This document shows, in pieces, positions 52,281-57,543 of a DNA stretch of 64,000 bases. The stretch's first letter is position 1. Each line of letters begins with the position of its first letter. This stretch comes from Ischnura elegans. Taxonomy: Eukaryota > Arthropoda > Insecta > Odonata > Coenagrionidae. Below the pieces are notes generated by a model. That model was not told where the DNA came from. It saw nothing but the letters and a program-made list of their open reading frames with translations, and did not search any database. Location of the stretch: contig NC_060257.1 in assembly GCF_921293095.1 (NCBI RefSeq), forward strand, positions 58,998,968 to 59,062,967, given 5' to 3'. A program made the position numbers and the translations under genes.

Positions 52281-52573
52281 TATGAGAGCAGAGTCCTCTG
52301 GATGGCAGTTCTCTACACTACTACCTCATAGGGTCGAGTCGTTCCATACACTTCCACTATGGGAATTGAGACGTCCGCCATTTTAGTTCTTCCGTCTCTA
52401 TAGAGTCTTACGGGGGAAAGTGATATAATGCCAATTTTTTCATAAATACGCGATTCCTGTCGCATTTTCGGTAATTATAAATTATAATACATTTAATCTT
52501 GATGTTCTGGGAACACTTTACTATCAATTTGTAAATTTTAAATCGTGAAAAATAACAAATAATCGCGCTTCAG

Positions 52574-52810
52574 TCAAGTTTTGATTATTTTCACAGGACG
52601 TTTTTCTAGATATGAAACTCTCATATTTATGTCTGAAACAAGGTAAATTATTTCCAAAACTACTATTACTGCTCCCAGGGCTACTATATAGCGTTTTGTT
52701 CTCGTCAAAGGAATAATTTCAGATTTTGAAAAGTCCAATATCAACTGAGAGAGAATCGTTATCTTCAGATCGGAAGACATTTCGCATGTAATATCCGAGC
52801 AAACTTCCAT
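52574..52810 (-). CDS. Small ORF with a predicted membrane segment (unidentified)
   Basis: A 78-codon minus-strand frame. The N-terminal part is polar (MEVCSDITCEMSSDLKI); around residues 42-60 lies a hydrophobic run, YIVALGAVIVVLEIIYLV; a basic end follows. It lies inside the hAT-bounded segment near its left end. I do not recognise a family. It may be a genuine small gene, an exon, or chance. Confidence 0.2.
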   Translation of the reverse strand: MEVCSDITCEMSSDLKITILSQLILDFSKSEIIPLTRTKRYIVALGAVIVVLEIIYLVSDINMRVSYLEKRPVKIIKT

Positions 52811-53248
52811 GAAAACAGCGCAATGGATATTATACTAGGAATTTGAGGAAAAGTCTGGTCAATTTTTAGTGCCGACAAATCGGAAATATTATCCTACCCC
52901 AAAATTAGACAAGAAAAACTACAGAAGTCCCAAGCTGTCATGCAGTTTATGTACTTTTCACGAGAGCTGCAGATCATAAAAGATATCATCAAAGGAGGTA
53001 TATAATAGAAAAAAATCACATTTTTCCAATGCATATAATGTACACACACCACAAATGCTACATTTTAAGATTTCCAGAATGATTTAACAATTCCATCGAA
53101 ACCAAGATTATTTACATAATGCAAAATAAAAAATAAATCTTAAGTGCACAAGATATAAAATTTCTATTAAAATGGATTCAAATTAGTAGGAGAGAATGAT
53201 GAATAATTGATAACACCTGCCACACATCTTGCATTCTTCTCAATGTTG

Positions 53249-53295
53249 CTATGTTCCTTTACCACCAATGATATTGACTACTCGAATATCTGAAC
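53249..53295 (-). CDS. Candidate terminal exon of an unidentified minus-strand gene
   Basis: A good acceptor (TTTTTAATTACAG|GTTCAG) opens a short exon reading SDIRVVNIIGGKGT-stop in phase 1. Inside the hAT-bounded segment, downstream of the exon candidates at 57.4, 56.7 and 55.8 kb. The phase does not connect directly to 55735-55805, so a linking exon would be needed. Confidence 0.2.
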
Positions 53296-53627
53296 CTGTA
53301 ATTAAAAATATAAATGAAATTTCGAGCTTTATCACACCAAAATCATTAATTCATAAGTAATTTCAATGAACAGCATCTTAGTGATACATCAAATTCTCAC
53401 AATCAACAGTCATGATAAAGTTCTATAATGTGTAGATGTTTATTAAACATGCAATCACATAAGTTTCTATATCATCTTTCACGGTTTGAGCAATAGGAAA
53501 TTAATAAACATGCAATTTCAATTGGCAGACAACTTTCTGGAAATTAATTCTATTACCAAGATGGCAATCTTCCTGTCAGCATACAAAATTATAAAAAGGA
53601 ATAATATGACATTAACATTCCACAACA

Positions 53628-53909
53628 CTGTTACTCAGTAGCATAACTATGGGGGGAGGAAGGGAAAGATCCCTCCCCAAAGCCTCAGAGAAATAAAAAA
53701 AATATTTATAATTATTTTTTATATTGAACTGCATCGACTAAAAGTTAAATCTTTAGCGCCAAAATGATTTCAAATGTATTTCCAGGAATGTTATTCTTCA
53801 AAAATTTTCTTGGACTGATTCGTTGTCTGAGGGGGAGGGGGGGGGGTTGCTACTCCAGGCCATCCTATCCTTCCCAAAGCATATTCGTAGTTATGCCATT
53901 GCCATTACT
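53628..53909. mobile_element. hAT-type MITE 'CAGTGGCGTAAC', copy 1
   Basis: 53636-53901: CAGTAGCATAACTATGGGG to GTAGTTATGCCATTG. Flanks CTGTTACT / CCATTACT (6 of 8). Same family as 63514-63789. Nested inside the 5.2-kb hAT-bounded insertion. Confidence 0.75.
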
Positions 53910-54122
53910 CCTTCACGCAAATATTTCAACATTTATCAGATCATCTAAAATTATTATCAAATTGTATACATACAGTCATATTAAACTACTCCATTGCCTA
54001 ACCTCGAACATCGTATGCTCTCCCCCTTTAAAAAATATTTACATTTTAAAACATTCCAAACAGCGGAATAGGTTGATAGATTTCACATTTAATACGCATT
54101 CTCAAACGTATCCCATATTTTA

Positions 54123-54715
54123 ACCCCAGAATACTGTTCAGCAAAGAATTCATGTCAATGGTGAAGGTACCCCCAACTAATGACCCTCATTATAATGATG
54201 AACACCTATCTCCATCAACACCACCATGGAATGTGTCATACAGTTTCCTCTGGTATTACATCCATTATAATAACATTCAGACCAGGATTAAGCAGTCAAT
54301 AGTTATGGAAAAAAATTGACTGTATAAGAGGAATCTCAGAATAGTAGTGAATTAATGCACAGCAAGACCAAACTTGCCTATCAAAAGAACCACTAGTAAT
54401 TATGAAGAACAGATTTCAACCCCAGAAAACTGTTCAGTGAAGAGTTAAAGTCAATGCTCATGGTACCCTCCAATCAATGAGATGAACAACATTTACTTTC
54501 TCCATTAACACTGTCATGGAATACATATATATTCCTTTAAGTACAACATATAATGTAGTAATTTGCCAAGAAGGATTAAGTAATCCACACTTCTGGAAAG
54601 AAACTAACTTAAAAAGAGGAATCTCAGAATTGCAGTGCATTTATGCACAAAAAAACTAAACTTACCCATCAAAAGAAGCATTCTCAATTATGAAGAAGAG
54701 ACTTGGCACTAGAAA
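54123..54715. repeat. Tandem duplication (~295 bp x 2)
   Basis: 54123-54419 and 54420-54715 are diverged direct copies. Shared blocks: 'CCCCAGAA(T/A)ACTGTTCAG', 'GAGGAATCTCAGAAT', 'TGCC(T/C)ATCAAAAGAA' type and 'AATTATGAAGAA'. On the minus strand both units contain the peptide-like block LFFII...SFD in the same frame, and a good donor (GATGG|GTAAGT) occurs in the right unit. Confidence 0.65.
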
Positions 54716-55734
54716 AAGTTTGCAATGCAATGACCGAGTGGTTGAGGACATGGGATGAGTTGGGGAAAAGGTTGACATTATGGAGGACAGAGGAGTCTGA
54801 AGAGACAACTTGTTGGTAAGGCCAAATATCAACTTGGATTTGAGTATGGAATCATATTACTTGCAATATTTACTTTGATTAAACATGTTTTGTGCTTCAA
54901 TTCCCCCTCTCTACGAACGACTGTTGCACTTATTTGTAATTTGATTTCAGCATTAATCTCATGAACATAATAACATTTCATACATACTAATTTCCTCTTC
55001 AAAAATAAGGGGGTACTTCGTAACTGGAACTTTAAAACTTGACTGAAGGATTAAAAGCAGTGGCTTCATAGTATGTGGTTTAGAATACCATTGATTAAAA
55101 AATTCAACCATGTTGCAATGACCTAATGCAATTTTTTTTAACCACATGCTGAAGTAGAAAACTGAAAGTAAGAATTACAACTCTACAGCATGCTTAAAAC
55201 ACTCCGTTGTATTTAAACCATACAGTATAGTAGGCCTTTATAATGTATTCTACTGAAGACCAAATGATTCTTTGGTGTTCTATACAACAATTACATGAAC
55301 TAAACGAGAAACCCAAAAATTATATTTAAACATGAATTCTCTTCTGCATGTTAATCGATGAAGCCATAATATCTTTGGAAAAGAATGATGCCAAGCTGAA
55401 AATGATAAGAATTCAGCCAATCAGTGATGTATAAAAAAAGTAAAGCTTATACTACAATTAAGTTAAGTTCGAACTCAAAGAGAACCAATGCGTCTAATAT
55501 TTATATGCCACTTTCATTATGAGGTTTTTGGCTTTTACTTTGCAGTGCACCATTTTCCTCTAGGAACTCTAATGAATTACCTTCAACAAATATATTCAAA
55601 GCTACAGACACTAACCTCAACCCTTAAGAAACAAATAAATGGCAATGTGGTATCCTATTCATACATGCATGCTGGTGAGAAGGGGTAGTTGAACATTCAA
55701 TGCCAGGGTATTTCTTGTAAAATGTAGAACTTAC

Positions 55735-55805
55735 CCAATCAGTAATGTAGCATCGTGTGCAAGTTCTTCCTATGTTGCTCCCTTGCCAAATGACACTCTT
55801 GGAAC
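55735..55805 (-). CDS. Candidate internal exon (unidentified gene)
   Basis: Bounded by TGTTCATGCAG|GTTCC and GATTGG|GTAAGT. In phase 1 it reads SKSVIWQGSNIGRTCTRCYI then TDW, with a CxxC pair. The strong splice sites and open frame suggest a real exon of the same minus-strand gene as 56478-56703 and 57228-57442. The direct join from 56478 needs either an unseen exon or the alternative acceptor CCAAG|AGTGTC five codons in. Confidence 0.3.
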
Positions 55806-56477
55806 CTGCATGAACAGCAGCAGCAACATGCAAGTGGTAATGCAAATCAAATTTATTAATTTATTCCAATGGTAAACATTACTAATCACTAGAATATAGA
55901 ATCAACGCAAAAGGAAATGGCAGAAAATCCCCCTACGGCTTAGGATAAACACCATAAATGGATTTAGGAGTACAATATCCTTGGTTTATCACAACGTATC
56001 ACTAAGAAATGCATTTTAAAGAAGTTTTTATTGCAACAGAAATCATGATATCTCAAATATATCATTAAAACCATATTATTTTCACACAATACCGCATCAG
56101 GTCTTGAATAAGTTATATCTACACATTAACAATAAGCTCCCACTCCACTCTTGACAATCACTATTTATAAAACATTTATAAAAGCACAATTAAACACACA
56201 TGCGTAATAAAAGTAAATATATAAGTAAAACAATAAGTTCAAAAAAAAGTTTATATGAATAATGTACACACTGACAACAACGCATTGAAATTGAAATGAT
56301 GTACGAAGAAATAATCAAAAACTCCTAGTTTTCCATAGCCATATTTTTTAAATGACTCGCAATAATTAGGCATGAATAGTACCGTCCTGTTTGATAATCA
56401 CTGAAGCCATTTCAGAAAAACCTAATTAATTATATATTTCCATATTTTACAATTAGTTAATAAGCCCGAATACGTAC

Positions 56478-56703
56478 CACAAGTAAATATTCGGCCAAAG
56501 ATGTTGAAACTTCAAGTACACAGGAGCAGACAGCAGCATAAGCACTGGGCCACGACAAAAGTTCGGTGTTTATGTATTTTTCCGTTTTAACCAGCCCTAG
56601 GAATGTAATCCTCTTCACTGGACTTAAACTGGAATTAAAAATTCGGAATGAGTCAAGGAAAAGATTAGTCGCAAAAGCGACTCGTTGAGATTTTAATTGC
56701 ATC
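56478..56703 (-). CDS. Candidate exon 2 of an unidentified minus-strand gene
   Basis: Acceptor CTTAATTTTAG|GATGC and donor CTTGTG|GTACGT. The first base completes the AG|G codon left by exon 1 and the frame stays open for 75 codons: MQLKSQRVAFATNLFLDSFR, ...GLVKTEKYINTELLSWPSAY and AAVCSCVLEVSTSLAEYLLV. Phase agreement with exon 1 across a 0.5-kb intron is the main support. I do not recognise the protein; it does not look like a transposase. Confidence 0.4.
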
Positions 56704-57227
56704 CTAAAATTAAGCATTCACACTACTTCGAAATATAATAGTCATTCTTCTCATAAACTACACACAAATAAAGCAATGAAAAGTGGAGTTTCGTCCACTA
56801 ATATGTATCCAGATGCGCAGATTCTAGTCAAAAACGTAATTGCCTTTATTGTTGTAAATGACCGTAAGATTACTTCATACCGGCATTGACAAAAACAAAT
56901 ATTTTTATTGAATACAAAACTAGCAGCACTAATAGTTATTGTTACACTTTCTGGTACGTAGTAAAGAACTACGTCAATCGTCTCTGCAACCCAGACTAAA
57001 TATTATATTTTAATCACAAAATTTCACATATTCCATTGATGAATAGAAAAAACAGAAGCACAAAAACACTCGTCAAGAACCTCGCCGGATTATCCGACCG
57101 GAATACATATTTTTTAAAATTACTACTCATGCACAGTTCAAACCTAATAATTGAAATACGTGGATCAACGCTATTAAAAATTTAAGGTAATAGTATTAAA
57201 GGAACCATTAAGTGTAGAAAAACTTAC

Positions 57228-57442
57228 CTCACGTAGGCGGGAAGACGTTGTTTGGTGTCACTTGTCCCTTCGGCATATTTGAAGCCATTTCGCTCTTCTC
57301 TCAGTATTTTGAGGGAAACTAATATTTTTAAACACGTCCTTAGTGCTAATGGAGCAATTAGGAGCCGAACTACAACATATTGTGCCGTATTTCTACTACA
57401 AATAACGGAAAATCTTGCCGAGCAACTGCCAGACACATTCAC
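57228..57442 (-). CDS. Candidate exon 1 of an unidentified minus-strand gene
   Basis: The ATG at 57442 lies 93 bp inside the right terminal repeat of the hAT-type element. 71 codons plus 2 bases lead to a strong donor, GTGAG|GTAAGT. It reads MNVSGSCSARFSVICSRNTA and then LKILVSLKILREERNGFKYA, EGTSDTKQRLPAYVR. The Arg/Ser-rich, acid-poor N-terminus could be a mitochondrial presequence. The gene begins just inside the element end and runs inward, as a transposon's own gene or a captured gene would. No family is recognised. Confidence 0.4.
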
Positions 57443-57543
57443 TTTCTACATGTAAACAGCAAGTGCAGAGAACAAAGATGGTAGGATGCGACGACTCAAC
57501 TTTGTAGTGTATTATCAACAATCCAGAGGACTCTGTATGAGAG

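Follow-up and report, generated by a model that had tools for sequence, protein, structure and literature searches.

The 64,000-nucleotide stretch of Ischnura elegans DNA analysed here (the window; contig 12:58998968-59062967 of assembly ioIscEleg1.1, whose 1,722,721,009 bases in 110 contigs were used for all genome-wide searches) contains a DNA transposon bounded by 15-bp terminal inverted repeats (TIRs) that are complementary at 15/15 positions (52289-52303 and 57521-57535) and flanked on both sides by a perfect 8-bp target-site duplication (TSD), TATGAGAG. The TIR 15-mer occurs exactly only at the two element ends across the whole window, and with up to 3 mismatches it has four window matches against 0.94 expected. 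Fusing the flanks at a single TSD gives a 199-amino acid (aa) open frame spanning the junction, for which 'Penelope-like' is a label from an earlier reading made without database searches. That sequence-only reading had claimed perfect 15-bp TIRs, a perfect 8-bp TSD and restoration of the interrupted frame at the empty site, and because the repeats, the flanking duplication and the junction frame are all as described, its boundaries stand. Its account of the interior, in which a hAT element might have taken up exons of a host gene, fares differently.

The genome search for further copies with the same TIRs that it suggested was productive. Searches with the left 612 bp and the right 406 bp gave 985 and 432 first-look candidates respectively, the best 40 of each, which were scored, being 95-100% identical, and a 29-nt right-end pattern with up to 3 mismatches is present at 233 + 214 = 447 places genome-wide, with none for the reversed control; a variant-end pattern search gave one match. 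Family elements are bounded by the ends CAGAGTCCTCTNNAT. All 16 other copies that we fetched have both TIRs, and 15/16 have perfect 8-bp TSDs that differ from one another, the sixteenth being offset by one base. The fetched copies span 4.4-11.1 kb, most commonly 5.6-6.2 kb. One of them, on an unplaced 19-kb contig (C99), shares 99.7% identity along its length with the copy in the window, with a different TSD and with flanks that have no match in the window. Kimura two-parameter distances between these two are 0.0008 (right 1200 bp) and 0.0023 (left 1300 bp), the median pairwise values for the 17 copies being 0.029 and 0.041. Because two such similar copies lie at different sites, the family has moved recently, and as far as the copies read it has done so without a transposase in cis.

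The sequence-only reading had seen no transposase in the element, and neither profile nor translated searches reveal one. Pfam was run on the 25 longer stop-to-stop frames within the element interval and gave the THAP relic described below and no catalytic transposase segment; one match to a domain of unknown function has an E value of 0.0044, 10 bits below the cut-off, and three others have E values of 0.14-0.2. With tblastn, the RNase-H-overlapping frames of 30 P loci have a best E value of 0.19 in the element proper (0.075 overall, in a long interspersed nuclear element (LINE) that has inserted into one copy); the query with an intact 733-aa hAT transposase has one match, with an E value of 4.3. 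None of the element copies read holds a P-type RNase-H transposase. Five copies of 9-11 kb were considered as autonomous candidates and rejected: they are family elements lengthened by additional DNA, which carries nested retroelement genes by Pfam in three of them (two of long terminal repeat type, one LINE-type) and no transposase by tblastn in the other two. The TIRs, the TSDs of constant length at many sites and the failure to find a transposase core inside give the family the look of an ordinary non-autonomous DNA transposon, the unusual part being a coding relic at its right end.

This relic is a 44-residue frame (57258-57392) that matches positions 2-40 of the 87-position THAP profile (Pfam PF05485; E 6.2e-4, 20.9 bits). 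It lies in the same exon and on the same strand as the first exon of the gene model in the sequence-only reading (57228-57442, joined to 56478-56703), but in a different frame. The model's exon-1 frame has one or two stops in 15/17 copies and stays open in only two, the window copy and the closely similar C99 copy, and its exon-2 frame has no Pfam match; the gene model is not confirmed. Of the good splice sites also claimed, the donor-like GTAAGT after 57228 is there in 17/17 copies. The suggestion of a gene just inside the element end and running inward is right in that a decayed THAP exon is there, and wrong in that the proposed frame is not conserved.

The TGA ending the THAP frame is present in 17/17 copies, so the exon was already broken in the ancestor that these copies share. 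An Arg replaces the expected THAP Cys before the donor, again in 17/17, and one copy (1/17) has a second stop within the frame. A version of this exon in another repeat has a Trp in place of the TGA and scores above the Pfam cut-off (E 8.1e-6, 27.0 bits); a search with the exon-1 pattern lacking the TGA gave two genome matches. Further inward, 56590-56628 reads as a continuation of the THAP domain in 10/17 copies and is altered in the other seven; by itself it has no Pfam match, and we therefore regard it as a possible but weak exon-2 remnant.

A sister family (L066) with a near-identical TIR and the end CAGAGTCCTCTATAT bears directly on the origin of the exon. It has 369 first-look candidates, and 39 of the best 40, which were scored, span the whole 357-bp query. 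Comparison of the sister end with the window element by blastn shows 79% identity over the terminal 66 bp, 72% identity in the exon, and nothing between. The sister peptide lies at the corresponding place, is 55% identical to the window THAP peptide, and alone matches THAP (E 4.2e-4, 21.5 bits); a TAG closes the sister frame, several codons beyond the place of the TGA. Relative to the stop-free version the sister exon has 10/10/18 differences at codon positions 1/2/3, and 13/26 changed codons are synonymous, a pattern such as formerly coding DNA would be expected to have. Because the two exons occupy corresponding places next to near-identical TIRs, the exon was probably already in place when the families separated, as would be expected if it belonged to the element's own former transposase gene.

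Given the THAP relic, the sister exon and the lack of any catalytic part among the sequences searched, the exon is most likely a relic of the element's own gene rather than a piece of a host gene, and we estimate a probability of about 80% that this is a high-copy, non-autonomous cut-and-paste family in which a remnant of the element's former transposase gene survives. The ancestral gene would have been transcribed from the right end inward, its first coding exon starting and ending within about 140-310 bp of that end and encoding the first half of the THAP domain; this half-domain would probably have formed the N-terminus of the transposase that the element then made. The catalytic sequence would have been lost, and the THAP exon had its TGA by the time of the last ancestor shared by the copies examined. 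The copies keep their TIRs and the subterminal motifs ACACTAC and GTYGAGTCGT (the latter also found in the sister family), those of the left end recurring at the right end in inverted orientation, and would have been mobilised in trans by an enzyme able to recognise these ends. The case shows that the first exon of what was most likely a THAP transposase can survive, as a relic, in a non-autonomous family of many copies. The sequence-only reading, which described the exons as 'host-type' and suggested that a hAT element could have transduced a host gene, with a new cargo or 'self gene' as the alternative, is thereby partly confirmed as an observation and partly supported as an interpretation, the self gene being its better-supported half; the host-gene reading, attractive but unsupported, is corrected.

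Several results weigh against this interpretation. No copy with both THAP and a transposase core between the element's ends was found, nor any partner transposase for these ends in the copies and loci examined. P genes abound in the genome and none was tied to the element's TIRs, with 150 of the 678 first-look P candidates scored, short flanks, and positions compared by eye. The THAP match in the window covers half a domain at 20.9 bits, under the Pfam cut-off of 23.9, and the sister match at 21.5 bits is also under it; phmmer and a solved-structure profile search gave no match even at E 10; and exon 2 is weak. Capture of a host THAP exon 1, and perhaps exon 2, followed by amplification of the element (a Pack-type origin) would account for the exon in another way, and THAP domains do occur in host genes. 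Pack-TIR elements exist in animals, 208/370 of them hAT-associated, with none found in the insect reference genomes surveyed, according to PMC8277862. The corresponding position and 55% identity of the sister exon argue against capture, however, and of the 15 best stop-free relatives the two that were fetched are a repeat and not a host gene; no host parental gene was found among the relatives read, which were a few of the 150 listed (these two and, from the lower-identity rows, one sister copy) and all repeat copies. We regard capture as unlikely. It is more improbable still that the broken exon remains in use, making a short DNA-binding repressor. Conservation of the donor and most of the frame in 17 copies would suit such a role, as would the stop-free version, carried by another repeat and listed at no fewer than 15 places, but the TGA and the Arg-for-Cys change are in every copy, one copy has acquired its second stop, and copies about 3-4% apart conserve most things anyway.

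The ancestry of the ends and of the exon is more evenly balanced between the P and hAT superfamilies, with P somewhat favoured. An ancestor and partner of the P superfamily, with the exon as the first exon of a P transposase, has in our view about an even chance. P transposases bind DNA through a THAP domain, and 8-bp TSDs flank both P elements and their miniature inverted-repeat transposable elements (MITEs), according to PMC1562414 and PMC10983969. An N-terminal THAP domain, of which the element's gene retains a half-domain relic, accords with P. The THAP, P RNase-H and DUF4371 matches compared were the best 150 of 2278, 678 and 205 candidates respectively. Compared by eye, at least 14 of the listed THAP matches have a listed P RNase-H match on the same strand no more than 5 kb away, and none was seen to have a listed same-strand DUF4371 hAT match so close (the one at C19:9690196 has a DUF4371 match 1.5 kb away on the opposite strand). 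On the other hand, none of 30 P loci has CAGAGTCCTCTGGAT at up to 2 mismatches within about 1.5 kb of flank each. The sole P element with both ends read has the TIR CACAGAGTATACAG and an apparent 7-bp TSD; it is nested in another family copy, and with ends so different we reject the claim that our element is certainly a P element. Comparison of P loci with one another recovered no P termini.

A hAT partner, perhaps bearing a THAP domain of the THAP12/P52rIPK-like kind found in some hAT transposases, seems to us a little short of an even chance. Ends of the form CAG(A/G)G with 8-bp TSDs are hAT-like, and the TIR indeed starts with CAGAG, although the 8-bp TSD fits P as well as hAT and the 17 TSDs lack the hAT consensus nTnnnnAn (T at position 2 in 2/17, A at position 7 in 8/17). 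Upstream (5') of an intact 733-aa hAT transposase gene lie a 34-bp sequence identical to the left end at 29/34 positions and a 17-bp sequence identical to the sister end, and 0/1000 shuffles reached either score (the right end, at 23/1000, is unremarkable). Nevertheless, 21 places match the whole of a 491-bp query that starts 135 bp before the 34-bp match, which is therefore internal to the hAT repeat and not its end, and resembles a mini-element nested there; for this reason we do not accept the 733-aa hAT as a proven partner. Its protein also has no THAP match. A damselfly family that combines such TIRs with THAP offers a modest clue to the relationship between P-type and hAT-type elements.

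Comparison with known systems shows the same mixture. The P-MITEs of Anopheles and the internally deleted P elements of zebrafish (Pdre) resemble the element in keeping transposase-family ends and an 8-bp TSD while being non-autonomous (PMC1562414 and PMC10983969). In those accounts P-MITEs are 205-2450 bp long, with interiors unlike any P sequence, whereas our element is 5-6 kb and keeps the THAP-exon relic; Pdre2 has the end CATACCTGTCAAC where the element has CAGAGTCCTCTGGAT; and no P master with the element's ends was found. Pack-TIR elements, as described in PMC8277862, are likewise TIR-bounded with exon-like sequence inside, but the present family has hundreds of copies, an exon at the corresponding place in a sister family, and no host parental gene among the relatives read. 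The CAGAG start and the 8-bp TSD are shared with non-autonomous hAT elements; hAT transposases have a BED or TTF finger, however, where this element has a THAP relic, and its 17 TSDs depart from the hAT consensus. Coordinates of the features in the window are collected in Table 1.

Table 1. Features of the transposon in the window (positions are those of the 64,000-nucleotide stretch).
Feature	Position	Strand	Remark
TSD, left copy, TATGAGAG	52281..52288		unlike TSDs of other copies read
Non-autonomous DNA transposon, 5247 bp	52289..57535		common form of relatives 5.6-6.2 kb
Left TIR, CAGAGTCCTCTGGAT	52289..52303	+	at left end of 16 other fetched copies, one mismatch in 2/16
Left subterminal motifs, ACACTAC (52315-52321) and GTCGAGTCGT (52333-52342)	52315..52342	+	by inspection, without a significance test
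Two diverged direct repeats, about 300 bp	54114..54704	+	74-81% by segment
Length-variation point	54725..54730		about 660-680 extra bases in 8/16 other copies
Possible exon-2 remnant, FKSSEEDYIPRAG, after acceptor-like TTCCAG	56590..56628	-	weak
Splice-donor-like junction G/GTAAG after THAP exon	57223..57228	-	invariant in 17/17 copies
Relic of N-terminal half of THAP domain, ending in TGA	57258..57392	-	Pfam PF05485
Right subterminal motifs, ACACTAC (57504-57510) and GTTGAGTCGT (57491-57500)	57491..57510	-	GTTGAGTCGT also in sister family
Right TIR	57521..57535	-	found in fetched copies too
TSD, right copy, TATGAGAG	57536..57543

The stop-free THAP exon is listed at 15 places, and the two that were fetched are a 3.57-kb repeat (L062 and L064 on C15; L063 and L065 on C12), 98.7% identical between the two copies read. 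This repeat has the ends CCCAGATAACACA...TGTGTTATCTGGG, with tandem or foldback-like termini and an apparent 2-bp TSD (TT; AT), and carries a stretch matching 1.68 kb of the family at 87%, including the THAP exon without its stop. Since the two fetched have these other ends, we rejected the 15 places as the autonomous partner. A more elaborate scheme can be imagined, in which the lineage joins hAT-like ends to a THAP-type transposase, the exon was also captured into the unrelated foldback-like repeat (TIR CCCAGATAACACA) and stays stop-free in its recent copies, and truncated THAP proteins could act as binding competitors or repressors, but we think it improbable.

The genome is rich in THAP and P-type sequences, the first-look candidates numbering 2278 for THAP and 678 for P RNase-H. 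The nested P element mentioned above (L061/L059; C12:91845300-91859299) has a 728-aa P frame and, by reading, a THAP-like frame, with the TIR CACAGAGTATACAGAGAGGA and an apparent 7-bp TSD, CTTCCAC; it sits about 65 bp inside a family copy that is not among the 16 fetched. Two groups of related THAP exons (L067, L068) have no family TIR in the 0.9-1.0 kb read.

The 733-aa hAT transposase (DUF4371 and Dimer_Tnp_hAT) is encoded at C5:83192500-83195700 (L069), and at least 8 listed copies have that length. In its 5' region there is an inverted repeat, and three CAGAGTCCTCT-like motifs lie at the arms or between them, as if a mini-element were enclosed in an inverted duplication of its flank. By coordinates only, a family copy (C1:6315220-6321625) apparently lies within this 5' region in another hAT repeat; the right flank there has 100% identity to L069, suggesting a recent insertion, and an exact family right end (C4:76017301-76017874) lies in the same region of another copy of the hAT repeat.

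Within the family itself, the extra 660-680 bases at the length-variation point contain, by reading only, a decayed LINE-like frame. The window copy and the C99 copy have no extra bases there, and the remaining other copies have extra stretches of different lengths.

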